A stretch of DNA of 64,000 nucleotides from Flavobacteriaceae bacterium 3519-10. GTDB taxonomy: Bacteria > Bacteroidota > Bacteroidia > Flavobacteriales > Weeksellaceae. Of the stretch, positions 7,045 to 14,462 are shown one piece after another; position 1 is the first letter of the stretch, and each line of letters starts with the position of its first letter. Location: assembly GCA_000023725.1 (NCBI GenBank), contig CP001673.1:816342-880341 (forward strand). Direction: 5' to 3'. The notes under the pieces were generated by a model that saw nothing but the letters and a program-made list of their open reading frames with translations, made no database searches and had not been told where the DNA came from. The position numbers and the translations under genes are program-made.

Positions 7045-10000
7045 ATGCAAAAAAGAATATTCGTAGAAAAGCGTGGGATTTTTGATGTAGAAAGCCCCGC
7101 AGTCTTTAATGAAATCAAAAATATCGTTCCCGGTATTAAGGATGTAAAAGTGTACAATATCTACGATGTTTTCGGGCTCGATAGTGAGGAGCTCGATCAG
7201 GTGATCGGAAATACATTTGTAGATCCCGTAACCGACGTGTTGCACAACGAAAATCCCGCAACAAATCTGTTTTTTGCAACCGAATTTCTACCCGGCCAAT
7301 ACGATCAGCGTGCCGATTCTGCCCAACAGTGTATCGCTTTGCTTACCGGAATTGAAAGTTCTACCGTAAGAAGCGGAAAACTTATAGACATCTCAGGCGT
7401 CTCTGAGGCTGACCTTCGTAAAATTAAAAATCATTTAATCAACAAAGTAGAAAGCCAGGAAAAAGACCTGTCAGTTCTTGAAATTCCAAAAGAAGAAGCC
7501 CCGGATTCCGTTATTGTTCACGAGGGTTTCATCAGCTTTTCAAAAGACGAACTCCAGGATTTTTACCACGATCACGGTTTCGCTTTGGGTCTCGATGATC
7601 TGGAATTTATCCAGAATTATTTTAAATCTGAACGGCGAAATCCTACCGAAACCGAGCTTAAAGTGCTCGATACCTATTGGAGCGACCATTGCCGACATAC
7701 GACGTTTGAAACCGAATTGACGGATATTCAGTTTAATGGTGAATTTAAATCAACACTCGAACATATTTTTGACGATTACTTAGAGAAAAGAAAATTCCTC
7801 GGCCGTGAAGCAAAGCCAATCTCGCTGATGGATCTTGCAACCGTTTGCGCACGTTACTTCCATAAAACCGGTAATCTCGAAAATCTTGTTGTTTCTGATG
7901 AAATAAATGCTTGTACAGTTGAAATTGAAGCAGAATATGACGGAAAAAAAGAGCCGTGGTACCTTCTTTTTAAAAACGAAACCCACAATCACCCTACCGA
8001 AATAGAACCTTTTGGCGGCGCCTCAACGTGTTTGGGTGGTGCCATCCGCGATCCGCTCTCGGGCCGGGCGTTTGTATATCAGGCCATGCGACTCTCAGGC
8101 GCTGGAAATGTGTTGGAGCCGGTTTCAGAAACATTGCCGGGAAAACTACCCCAAAGAACCATTTCAAAGCAGGCGGCCAACGGTTATTCATCGTACGGAA
8201 ACCAAATTGGACTTGCCACAACGTTAGTGAACGAAATCTACCATGAAGGTTATAAAGCCAAAAGAATGGAAGTCGGTTTTGTGGTCGGAGCCGTAAAGAA
8301 AGATTGGGTACGCCGCGAAAAGCCACTCGCCGGTGATTTGGTGATTTTGTTGGGTGGCGCCACCGGAAGAGACGGTGTGGGCGGGGCCAGCGGAAGTTCG
8401 AAGGTGCAGGACGAGACTTCAATACATACGTTATCTACTGAAGTTCAGAAAGGAAATGCAGTGGAAGAAAGAAAGATTCAGCGCCTGTTCCGTAATCCTG
8501 ATGTTACCAGGCTCATCAAAAAATCGAATGATTTTGGCGCCGGAGGCGTTTCTGTGGCTATTGGCGAGATAGCGGATTCACTCGAAATCAACCTCGATAT
8601 TCTCCCTTTAAAATATGGAGGTTTAAACGGAACTGAGCTTGCGATTTCTGAGTCGCAGGAAAGAATGGCAGTGGTGATTGAAGCACAGGATAAAGACAGA
8701 TTTATAAAATATTGCGAAAACGAAAACATCAAAGCAGTTGAAGTTGCCCGCGTAACCGATTCTCGCCGGATGCAGATGTTCTGGCAGGGCAGTATGATCG
8801 TTGATATCAGCCGCGATTTTCTCGATACAAACGGCTGTACTAAAAGTCAGAATGCAGTGATTTCGCACCTGAATAAAATCGAAAAACAGACGATAAGCTT
8901 TAACGAACAAAACTTTCTGAAAGCACTTGCTGATAAAAATTCAGCCTCCCAAAAAGGGCTTGCGGAAATGTTTGACGCTTCCGTGGGCGGAACTACGGTT
9001 GCAATGCCGTTTGGTGGCAGATATCAACTGACAGAAATGGAAGGCAGCGTACAGACTTTACCAATACTTAATGCCGACAATGTGGAAACCGTGTCGTTTG
9101 CGAGCTGGGGCTTTGATGCGGCAGTTTCTTCGCAGAATTCGATGATCGGGGCTGCAAATGCTGTGGTGGAAAGCGTCGCGAAGATCGTTGCAATGGGCGG
9201 CGATTACACGAAGATCCGTTTGAGTTTTCAGGAATACTTCGAAAAGCTGGGTAACAATCCCGTAAAGTGGGGCAAACCGCTTGCTTCGCTTCTTGGAGCC
9301 TACGATGCGCAGATGAATTTCGGTCTGGCAGCAATCGGCGGCAAAGATTCAATGAGCGGAAGTTTTCAGGATATTGATGTACCTCCAACGTTGATTTCGT
9401 TTGCCTGTGCAGATGGTAAAAAGGCAAACGTGATTTCGCCGGAGTTTAAAGAAACCGGCAATAAACTTTATCTGTATAATCATATTCCGAAAGAGAATGG
9501 TTTGCCCGAATATAAAAACCTCACAGATATTTTCAGTTTTATTTTTGAAAATATTAAATCCGGAAACATCGTTTCAGTGAAGACAGTGAAAGCAGGCGGT
9601 GTAGCAGTTGCGTTGGCAAAGATGAGTTTTGGCAATCTCTTAGGAGCAAATGTTGAGGTTTCGGAATCGTTACTTTTGAGTGAGAATGTAGGTAGTTTTA
9701 TTATCGAATGTAAGAATGAAATGAAAGTATCCTCACTTCAACTGATAGGTGAGGTTAAAAATTCAGAAATACTCAAAATCAATGGTTTAGATTTCAATAT
9801 TAAAAATTTACTTGAAGCCAATACATTAACTTTTGAAAACCTCTTTCCAACGGTTGAAGGAAAGAAGAGTGTTCTTGAGATCGATGCAAAATATAACGGA
9901 ACAAAGGCAGAGCAAATAAAAATTGTGAGTCATAAGCTGGCGAAGCCAAGAGTTTTCGCACCTATTTTTCCAGGTACAAACTGCGAGTACGAAACCCAGA

Positions 10001-10734
10001 ATGCCTTCAGAAAAGAAGGTGCTGAAGTAATTGGTTTGCCTTTAATAAATCTTAATCATCAGCTGTTGAATGAAAGTCTCGACGCCTGGATTGCAGAAAT
10101 TGAGCAGTCTCAGATTCTGGTTTTTTCAGGTGGATTTTCAGCGGGTGACGAACCGGACGGTTCTGCTAAGTTCATTGTAAACGTATTGAAAAATGCCAGG
10201 ATGAAAGACGCAGTGCACCGCTTTTTAGAACGTGACGGGATGATTCTTGGTATTTGTAACGGCTTCCAGGCACTCGTAAAATCGGGGTTGTTGCCGTTCG
10301 GCGAAATCCGGGATTTGGACGAAAACTCGCCGACGCTGGCGCATAATTCCATCGGAAGACATATTTCACAGATGGCGGATGTGCGCGTAATCAGTGATCA
10401 TTCGCCGTGGCTTAAAGGTATGAAAGATGAAGTGTATACAATTCCTTTGTCGCACGGCGAAGGCCGCTTTGTGGCGCCGGCAGGTGTAATTCAGGAGCTT
10501 TATCAGAATGGGCAGATTGCCACGCAATACGTTGGTGTGGATGGAAATATTGCGCACGGTATGCCGTTTAATCCGAACGGTTCTTTATTCGGGATTGAGG
10601 GGATTACGAGTAAGTGTGGCAAAATTTACGGTAGAATGGGCCACCCCGAAAGGTACGCGGATGGTTTGTTAAAGAATATTCCGACGGCCGCTTACCATAA
10701 TATATTTAAAAATGGAGTTGAATATTTTAAGTAA
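7045..10734 (+). CDS. purL: Phosphoribosylformylglycinamidine synthase, single-chain form
   Basis: A 1229-residue fused PurL of the large (gamma-proteobacterial/eukaryotic) type rather than the PurS/Q/L split form. Features in order: an N-terminal PurS-like region, the linker with TYWSDHCRHTTFETEL, the first AIRS-like domain with FKNETHNHPTEIEPFGGAST, the second AIRS-like domain with AAIGGKDSMSG, and a C-terminal class I glutaminase domain with FPGTNCEYE, nucleophile Cys1071 in GICNGFQALV, and MGHPER carrying the His/Glu pair. It converts FGAR, glutamine and ATP to FGAM. The coding region has no internal breaks. Confidence 0.97.
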   Translation: MQKRIFVEKRGIFDVESPAVFNEIKNIVPGIKDVKVYNIYDVFGLDSEELDQVIGNTFVDPVTDVLHNENPATNLFFATEFLPGQYDQRADSAQQCIALLTGIESSTVRSGKLIDISGVSEADLRKIKNHLINKVESQEKDLSVLEIPKEEAPDSVIVHEGFISFSKDELQDFYHDHGFALGLDDLEFIQNYFKSERRNPTETELKVLDTYWSDHCRHTTFETELTDIQFNGEFKSTLEHIFDDYLEKRKFLGREAKPISLMDLATVCARYFHKTGNLENLVVSDEINACTVEIEAEYDGKKEPWYLLFKNETHNHPTEIEPFGGASTCLGGAIRDPLSGRAFVYQAMRLSGAGNVLEPVSETLPGKLPQRTISKQAANGYSSYGNQIGLATTLVNEIYHEGYKAKRMEVGFVVGAVKKDWVRREKPLAGDLVILLGGATGRDGVGGASGSSKVQDETSIHTLSTEVQKGNAVEERKIQRLFRNPDVTRLIKKSNDFGAGGVSVAIGEIADSLEINLDILPLKYGGLNGTELAISESQERMAVVIEAQDKDRFIKYCENENIKAVEVARVTDSRRMQMFWQGSMIVDISRDFLDTNGCTKSQNAVISHLNKIEKQTISFNEQNFLKALADKNSASQKGLAEMFDASVGGTTVAMPFGGRYQLTEMEGSVQTLPILNADNVETVSFASWGFDAAVSSQNSMIGAANAVVESVAKIVAMGGDYTKIRLSFQEYFEKLGNNPVKWGKPLASLLGAYDAQMNFGLAAIGGKDSMSGSFQDIDVPPTLISFACADGKKANVISPEFKETGNKLYLYNHIPKENGLPEYKNLTDIFSFIFENIKSGNIVSVKTVKAGGVAVALAKMSFGNLLGANVEVSESLLLSENVGSFIIECKNEMKVSSLQLIGEVKNSEILKINGLDFNIKNLLEANTLTFENLFPTVEGKKSVLEIDAKYNGTKAEQIKIVSHKLAKPRVFAPIFPGTNCEYETQNAFRKEGAEVIGLPLINLNHQLLNESLDAWIAEIEQSQILVFSGGFSAGDEPDGSAKFIVNVLKNARMKDAVHRFLERDGMILGICNGFQALVKSGLLPFGEIRDLDENSPTLAHNSIGRHISQMADVRVISDHSPWLKGMKDEVYTIPLSHGEGRFVAPAGVIQELYQNGQIATQYVGVDGNIAHGMPFNPNGSLFGIEGITSKCGKIYGRMGHPERYADGLLKNIPTAAYHNIFKNGVEYFK

Positions 10735-10745
10735 AAAGAAAAGAA

Positions 10746-10883
10746 TTATAAGCTTTTTTGCTTATAAATGCTCATTATAAGCCTTTTAGCTTATAAGTTA
10801 ATATTATAAGCTATTTAGCTTATAATTTAAAAATATTAGCTAATTAACTTATATTCTTTATTTATAAGCACATTTGCTTATTT
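10746..10883. repeat. Array of five inverted repeats, TTATAAGC-N6-GCTTATAA, spaced exactly 29 bp
   Basis: Left arms start at 10746, 10775, 10804, 10833 and 10862, and right arms at 10760, 10789, 10818, 10847 and 10876. Copies 1-3 are perfect (spacers TTTTTT, CTTTTA, TATTTA). Copy 4 is degenerate (ATATTAGC, ACTTATAT) and copy 5 has two changes in its right arm (GCTTATTT). The spacing is kept even in the degenerate copy. The half-sites alternate in orientation every 14-15 bp. Copy 5 overlaps the predicted -7 element of the next gene, so an operator array for a cooperative DNA-binding protein is the natural reading. Confidence 0.9.
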
Positions 10884-10886
10884 TTG
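10879..10886 (+). promoter_or_regulatory. -7 element of the satD-like gene, apparently leaderless
   Basis: TATTTTTG matches TAnnTTTG and ends only 4 nt before the ATG at 10891, so the start of transcription should fall on or next to the start codon. It overlaps the right arm of the fifth inverted repeat. A weak -33 candidate TTTA lies at 10857-10860. Confidence 0.6.
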
Positions 10887-10890
10887 TAAC

Positions 10891-11496
10891 ATGATTGCGA
10901 TAATTACCGGTGATATAATAAATTCTCAGGATACCGATTCAGAAGTTTGGCTGCCCAAACTTCGTGATCTGCTGGGCAGCTGGTCTGCAAGTCCGGAAAA
11001 CTGGGACGTGTACCGCGGGGACGAATTTCAGGTAAAGTGCAGCGTTGATCAGGTTTTCCAGAAGTCTTTAATGATTAAATCTTTAATTAAAAAAACCGAA
11101 AACCTCGATGTACGACTCGCAATCGGTATTGGCAATGAAGTTTTCCTTTCCGAAAAAATTACCGAGTCCAACGGCTCAGCGTATGTAAATTCGGGCCGGC
11201 TGCTGAATGACATTAAAACCGACGGCCGCACACTCGCCATCCGCACAGAAAACGAGAACGTAAACCGTGACCTCAATATTCTGTTCAGATGGGCTTCGAT
11301 AGATTTCGACAGCTGGACAGTCGCCACCGCAGAGATCATTCACCGGTTGCTTACCAATGCCGAACTCACTCAGGATCAGTTGGCAAAAGATTTAAACATA
11401 AGCCAGTCATCAGTAAGTCAGCGGCTTAAGCGTGCAAATTATGACCTTATCCACGACACCAATCTGTTTTTCAGAAAAAAAATTGCAGAACTGTAA
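10891..11496 (+). CDS. SatD-family protein with C-terminal helix-turn-helix
   Basis: A 201-residue protein. The N-terminus MIAIITGDIINSQ and the YRGDEFQ motif around residue 45 match the SatD family, whose fold recalls nucleotidyl-cyclase-like domains. The C-terminal part (residues about 150-180) reads TQDQLAKDLNISQSSVSQRL, a clear helix-turn-helix. The protein could therefore sense a ligand and bind DNA. SatD in streptococci belongs to an acid-tolerance operon; its biochemical role is unsettled. The stop codon touches the ATG of the DUF3307 gene, so the two are cotranslated. The upstream operator array suggests self-regulation, which is an inference. Confidence 0.8.
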   Translation: MIAIITGDIINSQDTDSEVWLPKLRDLLGSWSASPENWDVYRGDEFQVKCSVDQVFQKSLMIKSLIKKTENLDVRLAIGIGNEVFLSEKITESNGSAYVNSGRLLNDIKTDGRTLAIRTENENVNRDLNILFRWASIDFDSWTVATAEIIHRLLTNAELTQDQLAKDLNISQSSVSQRLKRANYDLIHDTNLFFRKKIAEL

Positions 11497-12198
11497 ATGA
11501 TTTTTATTCCACTCATATTGGCTCATTTATTCGGAGATTTCCTTCTCCAGCCAAATTATTGGGTGGCCGATAAAGAACGGAAAAAAACCCGCAGCATTTA
11601 TCTGTATATCCATGTTCTTCTTCACGCCGCGCTCTCGTACATCGTTTTGTGGAATATCAAACTCTGGTGGATCGCCATGATCATCGGGGTTACCCATTTT
11701 ATTATCGATTCTGCCAAACTGCATTTTCAGAACCACAAAACCAAACGCATCTGGTTTTTTACCGATCAGTTACTCCATATTTTAGTGATTGCCGCTTTGT
11801 CGGTCTTTTATTTTCCGTACTTACAATGGTCGGATATTTTTACTCCTGAAAACCTTAAAATAATCACCGCAATCGTTTTCCTCACGGTGCCTTCGTCGAT
11901 TTTTATTAAAACTTTAATTTCAATCTGGACACCCATAACCGCGGAACAAAGCAGCTTCCAGACGGAGTCTTTGGTGAATGCAGGAAAATATATCGGAATT
12001 TTAGAGCGTTTGCTGGTTTTCGTCTTCATCCTCGTTAATCATTGGGAAGGCGTAGGCTTTATGATTGCCGCGAAATCTGTGTTCAGGTTCAGCGATTTGG
12101 CTGACGCAAAGCAGAGAAAACTCACCGAATACGTGCTGATAGGCACATTGTTGAGTTTCGGAATTGCCGTAGTGACAGCAATTTTAGTTAAAATTTAA
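11497..12198 (+). CDS. DUF3307 integral membrane protein
   Basis: A 233-residue, strongly hydrophobic protein with about six to seven membrane segments. The start, IPLILAHLFGDFLLQPNYWV, followed by DKERKKTRS and HVLLHAALSYIV, is typical of DUF3307, a family of unknown function. His and Asp residues lie in or next to membrane segments (HLFGDF, HVLLHA, HFIIDSAK, TDQLLHI), which could bind a metal or an ion. It directly abuts the satD-like gene (no intergenic base) and lies 34 bp before purC, so it may be regulated with both. Confidence 0.8.
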   Translation: MIFIPLILAHLFGDFLLQPNYWVADKERKKTRSIYLYIHVLLHAALSYIVLWNIKLWWIAMIIGVTHFIIDSAKLHFQNHKTKRIWFFTDQLLHILVIAALSVFYFPYLQWSDIFTPENLKIITAIVFLTVPSSIFIKTLISIWTPITAEQSSFQTESLVNAGKYIGILERLLVFVFILVNHWEGVGFMIAAKSVFRFSDLADAKQRKLTEYVLIGTLLSFGIAVVTAILVKI

Positions 12199-12232
12199 TT
12201 ATTCATTCAGAAATTAATCAAATAAAATAGAA

Positions 12233-12952
12233 ATGAAAAAAGGAGCAATGCTTTATGAAGGAAAAGCAAAACAGGTCTTCGAAACCGATCATCCCGATGA
12301 AGTGATTGTCCGTTTCAAAGACGATGCAACCGCTTTCAATGCGCAGAAAAGGGGAAGTGTAGATTTGAAAGGCGAGATGAACAACGCCATTACCACCCTT
12401 ATTTTCGAATATTTGAATAAAAAGGGCATCCCCACGCATTTTATAAAGCAAATTGATGAACGCGAGCAGCTTGTAAAAAAAGTAAACATCATTCCACTGG
12501 AAATGGTGGTGAGAAATTACTCGGCGGGAAGCATGGCTCAACGATTAGGCGTGGCCGAAGGCATAAAATCTCCTGTTACGATCTTTGATATCTGCTATAA
12601 AAAAGACGAACTCGGCGATCCGCTGATCAACGATCATCACGCAGTTTTTCTGGGTGCAGCGACGTACGAAGAGCTTGATGAGATGTATGAACTCACTTCA
12701 GATATCAACGATATTCTTATTGAACTGTTCGACAGTATGAACATTATTCTGGTCGATTTCAAGATTGAACTGGGTAAAACTTCAAACGGAAAAATAATCC
12801 TGGCGGATGAAATTTCGCCCGATACATGCCGTTTATGGGACAAAGACACGATGAAAAAACTCGATAAAGACCGCTTCCGCCGGGATTTAGGCGGAGTAAC
12901 TGAAGCCTATGTAGAGATTTATGAGCGTCTCAAAAAGGTTTTAGACAAATAA
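12233..12952 (+). CDS. purC: SAICAR synthetase
   Basis: A 239-residue PurC of normal bacterial length. [20 protein letters not shown] at the N-terminus is the ATP-binding beta region, followed by [14 protein letters not shown], the family stretch [17 protein letters not shown], and [14 protein letters not shown] near the C-terminus. It joins CAIR and aspartate with ATP to give SAICAR. It lies 34 bp after the DUF3307 gene and 19 bp before purF. No separate promoter is visible upstream, so it may be expressed from the satD-like promoter or by read-through from purL. Confidence 0.97.
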
Positions 12953-12971
12953 TTTTTAGGAAAAACAAATA

Positions 12972-14462
12972 ATGCACGACTTACAGATACAAAAGGATAA
13001 CTATTTAAACCAATTTACGGAAAGGGTTTACGGACGCAATCTGCTTAAAACAGATGACGTCTTTGATGCTCCAACAGAAGAATGTGGCATTTTCGGAATT
13101 TATTCTGATGTAGATCTTGATACTTTTTCGTTGTCGCAGTTCGGTCTTTTTGCACTTCAGCACAGAGGGCAGGAGGCATGCGGAATTTCGGTGATGAAAA
13201 ACGGCAAAATATTTAACATAAAAGATGAAGGTCTTGTGCTGGATGTATATAAAAACATTCGTGAACCTGAAACTTTCATGGGCAATTCGGCGATTGGCCA
13301 TACCCGGTACACCACGGCGGGCGACAAGAAAAAGTATAATTTTCAGCCGTTTTTTGCTAAAAATGAGTACGACCAGATCATTCTTTCAATCGCGCACAAC
13401 GGAAATTTAACCAATGCAGAGGAACTCAAAAGAGAACTTGAGGCCGAGGGCGTCGTATTTAAAGCAACTTCCGATTCTGAAGTGATTTTAAGACTGATCC
13501 AGAAAAATCTCGATTTAGGTTTAAGAGGCGCGATAAAAGCCACGATGGAAAAAATTGAAGGTGCCTATTCGGTTGTTGGAATGACGCGCAATAAATTTTT
13601 CGCTTTCCGCGATTTTCACGGCATCCGGCCTTTGGTTTTGGGCGCCATTGACGAAAAAACGTTCGTGGCAGCATCGGAATCTGTAGCCCTGGACGCTGTT
13701 GGAGCGCAGTATGTGCGGGATATTCTTCCTGGCGAAATTGTGTACACCAGCGAGAACGAAACGGGCTTAAAGTCTTTTCTGGTTCGCGAAAACTGCGAAA
13801 AAAGAATCTGCGCTTTCGAATATATTTATTTCGCGCGCCCCGATTCAATTCTCGAAAATATAAACGTTTATAAAATCCGCGAAAAGTCCGGCGAAAAAAT
13901 TTGGGAACAGGCGCCTGTGGAAGCAGATGTTGTGATTGGTGTGCCCGATTCAGGTGTGCCCGCAGCAATTGGTTTTTCCAAAGCTTCAGGAATTCCGTTC
14001 CGGCCTGTTTTAATTAAAAACCGCTATATCGGCAGAAGTTTTATTGTGCCGACGCAGGATATGCGCGAACGTATTGTAAACTTGAAACTCAACCCGATCA
14101 TTTCAGAAATCCGTGGGAAAAGAGTGGTGATCATCGACGATTCCATCGTGCGTGGCACAACTTCTAAACGCCTGGTAAAGATTATGAAAGATGCCGGTGT
14201 GAAAGAGATCCATTTCCGCAGCGTTTCGCCACCGATTATCGCGCCTTGCTATCTTGGAATCGACACACCGTCCAAAGACGATTTGATTTCGGCAAACATG
14301 AATGCTAACGAACTTCGCGATTATCTGGGTGTAGATTCGCTGGAATTTTTAAGTATGGATAATCTTAAAGTCATTCTTGGCAGCAGTAATCACTGTTTCG
14401 GTTGTTTTACAGAACAGTATCCGGTTCCGGCCGGCCCAAGTCCTGATTATACGGATGAATAA
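12972..14462 (+). CDS. purF: Amidophosphoribosyltransferase
   Basis: A 496-residue enzyme. The N-terminal glutaminase nucleophile is Cys38 in EECGIFGIYS, implying removal of a 37-residue propeptide. The PRPP loop VVIIDDSIVRGTTSKR is in the C-terminal phosphoribosyltransferase domain. Cysteines in CAFEYIYFARPDS, PCYLGID and the C-terminal HCFGCF suggest the 4Fe-4S type known from Bacillus rather than the cluster-free E. coli type; this is inferred from motif positions only. It catalyses the first step of purine synthesis. It lies directly after purC and ends in a strong terminator. Confidence 0.96.
   Translation: MHDLQIQKDNYLNQFTERVYGRNLLKTDDVFDAPTEECGIFGIYSDVDLDTFSLSQFGLFALQHRGQEACGISVMKNGKIFNIKDEGLVLDVYKNIREPETFMGNSAIGHTRYTTAGDKKKYNFQPFFAKNEYDQIILSIAHNGNLTNAEELKRELEAEGVVFKATSDSEVILRLIQKNLDLGLRGAIKATMEKIEGAYSVVGMTRNKFFAFRDFHGIRPLVLGAIDEKTFVAASESVALDAVGAQYVRDILPGEIVYTSENETGLKSFLVRENCEKRICAFEYIYFARPDSILENINVYKIREKSGEKIWEQAPVEADVVIGVPDSGVPAAIGFSKASGIPFRPVLIKNRYIGRSFIVPTQDMRERIVNLKLNPIISEIRGKRVVIIDDSIVRGTTSKRLVKIMKDAGVKEIHFRSVSPPIIAPCYLGIDTPSKDDLISANMNANELRDYLGVDSLEFLSMDNLKVILGSSNHCFGCFTEQYPVPAGPSPDYTDE

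Follow-up and report, generated by a model that had tools for sequence, protein, structure and literature searches.

Within the 64,000-nucleotide stretch of DNA analysed here (the window, to which all positions refer), the gap between purL and a satD-like gene is filled by an array of inverted repeats, raising the question of which protein reads these repeats and with what effect on the genes behind them. The original prediction had described five inverted repeats in this gap at a constant period of 29 bp, and these were recovered in full, each being 22 bp long with starts exactly 29 bp apart. Copies 1 (TTATAAGC-TTTTTT-GCTTATAA, 10746-10767, arms 10746-10753 and 10760-10767), 2 (TTATAAGC-CTTTTA-GCTTATAA, 10775-10796, arms 10775-10782 and 10789-10796) and 3 (TTATAAGC-TATTTA-GCTTATAA, 10804-10825, arms 10804-10811 and 10818-10825) of this putative operator are perfect. 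Copy 4 (ATATTAGC-TAATTA-ACTTATAT, 10833-10854, arms 10833-10840 and 10847-10854) has diverged in its arms and keeps the 29-bp phase all the same, as had been claimed, and copy 5 (TTATAAGC-ACATTT-GCTTATTT, 10862-10883, arms 10862-10869 and 10876-10883) lies over the predicted -7 promoter element of satD; no strand is assigned to any of the five.

The array is real and beyond chance. A five-member 29-bp chain was found in none of 2000 dinucleotide shuffles (0/2000) and four-member chains in two (2/2000), and the lag-29 identity of the array reached 89/127, as compared to 43.7 ± 5.3 in the shuffles (maximum 61). Between copies, identity was 86% in the arms, 55% in the spacers and 37% in the linkers, and since the arms are so much better conserved than the rest, the array is not a recent tandem duplication. 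The exact site occurs in the 2.77-Mb genome only within the array; when up to two mismatches were allowed, 15 sites were found genome-wide versus 74 for the reversed control, and the array before satD was the sole multi-site cluster. A scatter of the same repeats throughout the genome, which would have refuted the original prediction, is ruled out by the uniqueness of the exact site and the absence of a second cluster.

The satD-like gene (10891-11496, + strand) encodes a protein of 201 amino acids, with an N-terminal palm domain resembling nucleotidyl cyclases and GGDEF proteins and a C-terminal helix-turn-helix (HTH), as indicated by Pfam (PF16264, E 4e-12; HTH_24; Sigma70_r4), AlphaFold2, Foldseek and a profile match to the cyclase Ma1120. 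Its membership in the SatD family is well founded (46.6 bits against a curated cut-off of 29), and PF16264 is matched by 63/87 of its homologues. Directly after it lies its presumably co-transcribed partner, the gene of a multi-helix membrane protein, DUF3307 (11497-12198, + strand; PF11750, E 1.7e-28), so that the SatD-like identity, the C-terminal HTH and the DUF3307 partner proposed from the sequence are all upheld by Pfam. The AlphaFold2 model of DUF3307 is that of an all-helical membrane protein (pLDDT 91) with a conserved His and Asp, and no relative of it was found in the PDB by sequence or by fold. NCBIfam gave no specific match. We take the order around the pair to be purL - array - satD - DUF3307 - purC - purF, within 7045-14462, the pur names having been assigned by reading the translations. 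The pair has other settings in many other genomes, some loci lacking purL upstream, and DUF3307 follows satD in 243/248 loci and in 104 of the 109 non-redundant ones, the units being mostly chromosomal and single-copy. One lineage (L074 and L075) keeps satD with no DUF3307 found within reach and no recognisable form of the usual array, and the L075 protein no longer has several of the conserved palm residues. PF16264 and PF11750 are both families without a described mechanism; in the literature searched, mentions of the 'SatD family' or DUF3307 were rare and none was about an operator, and a candidate SatD paper (PMC4886424) was discarded, its subject being DUF2652.

The array is conserved along with the gene. 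We found satD in 36/36 genomes of the genus (several contigs of this set appear as Kaistella in another search), and at least two phased copies before it in all 36 genomes and in 78/80 named loci, with the nearest copies mostly at -29 and -58; copy 5 of the present array has the position, -29 from the ATG, that nearly all members of the genus share. Across the phylum, a profile search found SatD relatives in 105/395 Bacteroidota genomes, and the best self-similarity lag within the 200 bp upstream was 28 in 47 and 29 in 29 of 109 non-redundant loci (76/109 together), with secondary peaks at 56 and 58, while shuffles were scattered over other lags. The remaining 33/109 loci gave a best lag other than 28 or 29. 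No array was seen in a divergent GC-rich group (L249-L258), nor was one found at two Flavobacterium loci with an ATTAC-type helix (L306 and L307). Homologous loci devoid of related repeats would have counted against the original prediction, which the comparison failed to refute: the array is kept at homologous loci, at 28 or 29 bp in most, with letters that vary by lineage. To compare half-sites we used a fixed 22-bp geometry (8-bp arms, arm offset 14), and in most lineages the half-site read TTAT-xyz-C, with xyz being AAG or TAG, CGG, TAC, CGT, TCC, CTG or others. The register search weakly favoured T at half-site positions 2 and 4, and these letters are therefore partly imposed; xyz is not. 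The 22-bp geometry is thus constant across lineages while the letters of the half-sites change. Some loci show a jump of 46-47 bp between two site pairs instead of 28-29 bp (L013-L016 in the genus; L364 and L366 on haloarchaeal plasmids).

Beyond Bacteroidota, the pair was found on plasmid records of Vibrio, Salinivibrio, Pseudoalteromonas, Sphingomonas, Fusobacterium and haloarchaea. Three phased sites precede it on a Vibrio lentus plasmid (-108, -80 and -52) and two on a Pseudoalteromonas plasmid (-52 and -24). Two haloarchaeal plasmids carry GTTCGCC-type sites at -128, -99 and -52 (spacings of 29 and 47, in this order), and one more copy, GTTCGGT...GGCGAAC, can be made out near -23; these two loci are closely related and amount to one independent case. 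Arrays were weak or absent at the Salinivibrio, Sphingomonas, Pseudomonas fragi, Fusobacterium and Segatella loci. On a Sphingomonas plasmid (L361), the pair adjoins a Pycsar effector gene and a cyclase gene, and an AAA-family ATPase gene lies near the pair on two plasmids.

That the operator letters vary among lineages allowed them to be set against the residues of SatD. Across 258 loci (effective number 58), residue 177 showed the strongest association with xyz of all SatD residues (mean z 12.1). In the present protein it is Gln177 (codon 11419-11421, + strand) and lies in the predicted recognition helix of the HTH (residues 172-181, 11404-11433, + strand), which was assigned from the AlphaFold2 model and the co-variation. 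Residues 174, 173 and 171, of or beside this helix, ranked high as well. The N-terminal residues 137, 45 and 23 were also associated with the operator, probably reflecting shared ancestry. Among pairs of loci with an N-terminal identity of 0.45-0.60, xyz agreed in 1026/1691 (0.607) when residue 177 was equal versus 33/4664 (0.007) when it was different, and at an identity of 0.60-0.75 in 3165/3409 (0.928) versus 5/36 (0.139); as the pairs are not independent, these counts are descriptive only. In partial Mantel tests the correlation between operator and helix, given N-terminal distance, was 0.314 (p 0.002), and that between operator and N-terminus, given the helix, was -0.066. The resulting code pairs Q177 with AAG or TAG, E or D177 with CGG, CTG or CGT, R177 with TAC, K177 with TCC and G177 with CGT. 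Some 60 Flavobacterium loci combine (I/V)NQAAVSRR with ATTAC, and switches occur among their close relatives, IKRAAVSRR going with GTTAC (L193/L264) and INQAAVSKR with ATTCC (L335).

Since the half-site letters track the recognition helix, SatD itself very probably reads the array, as the original prediction had proposed for this multi-site operator; we have little doubt on this point, strong as the co-variation is, albeit in the absence of binding data. Among the properties by which an autoregulatory operator would be recognised, several copies at the regulator's own promoter are present, the last of the five over the -7 box, and recognition of the site by the encoded protein is supported solely through the co-variation of half-site and helix, with no binding assay.

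The promoter itself points to how such binding might act. The claim that the last copy lies over the -7 element held, with copy 5 (10862-10883) overlapping the predicted element TATTTTTG (TAnnTTTG; 10879-10886, + strand), which spans -12 to -5 relative to the A of the ATG and was assigned from the sequence, the homologous loci and a published promoter map (PMC9723704). The sigma-A box of F. psychrophilum, TAnnTTTG, occupies positions -12 to -5 counted from the transcription start, and leaderless mRNAs make up 5.5% (PMC9723704). Given that the box here takes the same place relative to the ATG, the transcription start is predicted to be the ATG, and the satD mRNA to be leaderless. The start of TAnnTTTG falls at -12 in 179/334 homologous loci and at -16 to -11 in 230/334. 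Most homologues place the box at -12 to -5 from their ATG, which predicts that the leaderless form of the satD mRNA, a rare class in the phylum, is conserved. The overlap of copy 5 with the -7 box points to autorepression of this leaderless mRNA. In Flavobacterium, the end of the array lies at many loci about 55 bp ahead of the ATG, and not over the ATG-proximal box.

A regulon elsewhere in the genome found no support. In nearly all genomes of the genus, sites with at most one mismatch were fewer than those of the reversed control, and the sites listed outside satD each stood singly; in Flavobacterium, site counts were about those of the control, with clusters solely at satD among those listed. 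As the evidence from the genus and Flavobacterium consists of listed sites only, the claim of a single target leans mainly on the present genome, where SatD's main or only DNA target appears to be its own operator, again without binding data.

We then considered the N-terminal domain, for which the AlphaFold2 model of SatD, a confident one (pLDDT 96.3), predicts a palm fold. A profile search reached the class III cyclase Ma1120 (E 0.003), with D8 and D44 aligned to its D-I-x-x-S and G-D motifs: Asp8 (codon 10912-10914, + strand) falls on the first metal-binding Asp of class III cyclases, and Asp44 (in RGDEFQ; codon 11020-11022, + strand), invariant in 87 homologues, on the second. Foldseek matched the model to GGDEF domains, Ma1120, Cas10-type proteins and mCpol, with E-values of 3e-3 at best and with a probability of 0.99-1.00 for many hits, the TM-scores to cyclases being near 0.4. 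Two marks of a class III cyclase, a palm fold and two metal-binding Asp, are thus present, if with weak E-values. SatD does not conserve the transition-state Asn of cyclases where the alignment would place it; G95-A97-S101-G102-R103 resembles the GxxVNxAxR-like motif of the transition-state Asn and Arg with the Asn shifted by one place, an alignment judged by eye. As the palm fold is accompanied by both aligned metal-binding Asp, the domain likely binds a nucleotide, although both binding and catalysis are inferred from the model and there are no nucleotide data.

Taken together, computation shows an array that is conserved, keeps its geometry and co-varies with the recognition helix, and the best explanation of the whole, in which we place high confidence, is that this array serves as the SatD-like protein's own operator, by which the protein autorepresses satD-DUF3307. 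The C-terminal HTH of SatD would bind each 22-bp inverted repeat as two half-sites, TTAT-AAG-C; the alternation of half-site direction every 14-15 bp, part of the original prediction, is retained in this model. SatD bound to the last copies would mask its own promoter at the -7 element and thereby stop synthesis of the leaderless satD-DUF3307 mRNA, making the pair a self-limiting two-gene unit; that the net effect is repression rather than activation is probable, though inferred without expression data. Because the 28-29-bp phase is kept across lineages, neighbouring SatD dimers are proposed to touch, which would make binding cooperative and the switch steep. Such contacts are somewhat more likely than not, and a true SatD filament on the array is doubtful, both being inferred from the fixed spacing with no binding data; the 46-47-bp jump, which a simple filament does not predict, counts against one. 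At an assumed 10.5 bp per turn, 28-29 bp per repeat would rotate each repeat against the next by between about two thirds and three quarters of a turn, so that the dimers would wind around the DNA and not line up along one face. Finally, the palm domain may bind or convert a nucleotide that loosens or tightens SatD on DNA, and the nucleotide sensed or made would, by altering occupancy, set the amounts of SatD and of DUF3307, the inferred output of the unit; lacking nucleotide data, we hold this nucleotide control only tentatively.

Several other readings of the array have to be weighed against autorepression. SatD might bind it as an activator, or to build a nucleoprotein platform (for example for partition or tethering), with autoregulation secondary. 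There is precedent in the omega/parS system of pSM19035, where half-site arrays overlapping promoters are bound by a small protein (PMC9499535), and several relatives of the pair are plasmid-borne. The ParA partner of that system was not recognised here, no such gene being annotated next to the pair on most of the plasmids inspected, with the AAA-family ATPase gene near it on two plasmids left aside; with no conserved ParA-like ATPase, a membrane protein as the constant neighbour, mostly chromosomal single-copy units and sites placed at the promoter and fixed relative to the ATG, we regard this reading as improbable. That another regulator binds the array, such as one of the surrounding purine operon, is suggested merely by the position of the pair between purL and purC in the present genome. 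The array is found before satD also at loci without purL upstream, its letters follow the SatD recognition helix and the genome holds no second site cluster; the array goes with satD and not with the pur genes, and the idea is largely refuted, leaving it a very slim chance. Slimmer still is the chance that the repeats act as RNA hairpins, for instance as a terminator or attenuator after purL: the transcribed strand does fold better than its shuffles (-40.3 vs -26.4 kcal/mol, z -4.3), which is expected of any array of inverted repeats. The array lies upstream of the predicted transcription start, hairpins have no use for a 28-29-bp phase and the letters of the arms follow a DNA-binding helix; we rejected this reading, an Rfam scan of the array region having returned no match and no intrinsic terminator having been predicted on the + strand.

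The last reading is compatible with autorepression, and holds that the pair is a module akin to Panoptes or to a toxin-antitoxin system, in which SatD restrains a membrane-active DUF3307 through repression and a nucleotide signal. A palm-fold protein and a membrane protein likewise form the two-gene Panoptes operon (PMC12657218), mCpol is among the Foldseek structural matches, and relatives of the pair occur on plasmids, one of them beside Pycsar genes. Moreover, satD is reported as an essential accessory gene in Streptococcus pyogenes (PMC11323703), and being essential yet accessory is what one would expect if a gene keeps a harmful partner in check. Against this, the effector of Panoptes is an S-2TM-beta protein, which DUF3307 is not, DUF3307 is without a relative in the PDB, and the pair is present in 36/36 genus genomes, unlike typical defence genes; nor did PADLOC recognise a known defence system, neither protein being matched at a meaningful E-value. 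We consider this reading unlikely, if less so than the others.

Should autorepression by SatD be correct, the array supplies the regulator's target, the co-variation provides a testable recognition code and the palm domain a candidate signal. If the code has been read correctly, a Q177E substitution is expected to move the preference of SatD from TTATAAGC towards TTATCGGC. A fixed geometry with rewritten letters further constitutes a natural series for the co-evolution of HTH and operator across hundreds of genomes. As a speculation, and one more apt to fail than to hold, SatD-DUF3307 may be a signalling unit that is widespread and crosses domains: a palm that makes or senses a nucleotide, fused to an HTH, would assemble along the operator array phased at 28-29 bp before its own gene and so link a nucleotide signal to a membrane effector, the operator letters having been rewritten many times under a fixed geometry.

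Among known systems, the SatD of the Streptococcus sat operon shares the family name and PF16264 and is known from acid tolerance and from a report of the gene as accessory yet essential (PMC11323703); the literature searched, which did not cover the sat-operon paper of S. mutans, describes neither an operator nor a mechanism for it. Class III nucleotidyl cyclases and GGDEF proteins (Ma1120, the Vibrio cholerae GGEEF protein) share the beta-alpha-beta-beta-alpha-beta palm fold and the Asp pair aligned with D8 and D44, whereas SatD scores weakly against them, does not conserve the transition-state Asn at the aligned place and has its palm fused to a DNA-binding HTH. In Panoptes, OptS and OptE similarly form a two-gene operon of a palm-fold (mCpol) protein and a membrane protein, but OptS is a bare mCpol domain without an HTH, OptE is an S-2TM-beta protein and no operator array is described (PMC12657218). 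Autorepressed toxin-antitoxin operons such as relBE also comprise two genes, both repressed by a DNA-binding protein that acts on operators at the promoter (PMC2812701), repression being an inference in the case of SatD; here the second gene encodes a multi-pass membrane protein, with no evidence of toxicity, and is present throughout the genus. The omega repressor (ParB-pSM19035) with its heptad-repeat operators and parS sites resembles SatD in being a small autoregulatory DNA-binding protein with arrays of short sites over its own promoter, and it binds with high affinity only when several sites are present (PMC9499535). Omega is a ribbon-helix-helix protein whose 7-bp units are contiguous, which has a ParA ATPase as its partner on plasmids and controls several genes (PMC9499535), whereas SatD combines an HTH with a palm domain, its inferred sites are 22-bp palindromes that recur every 28-29 bp, and it apparently has a single target.
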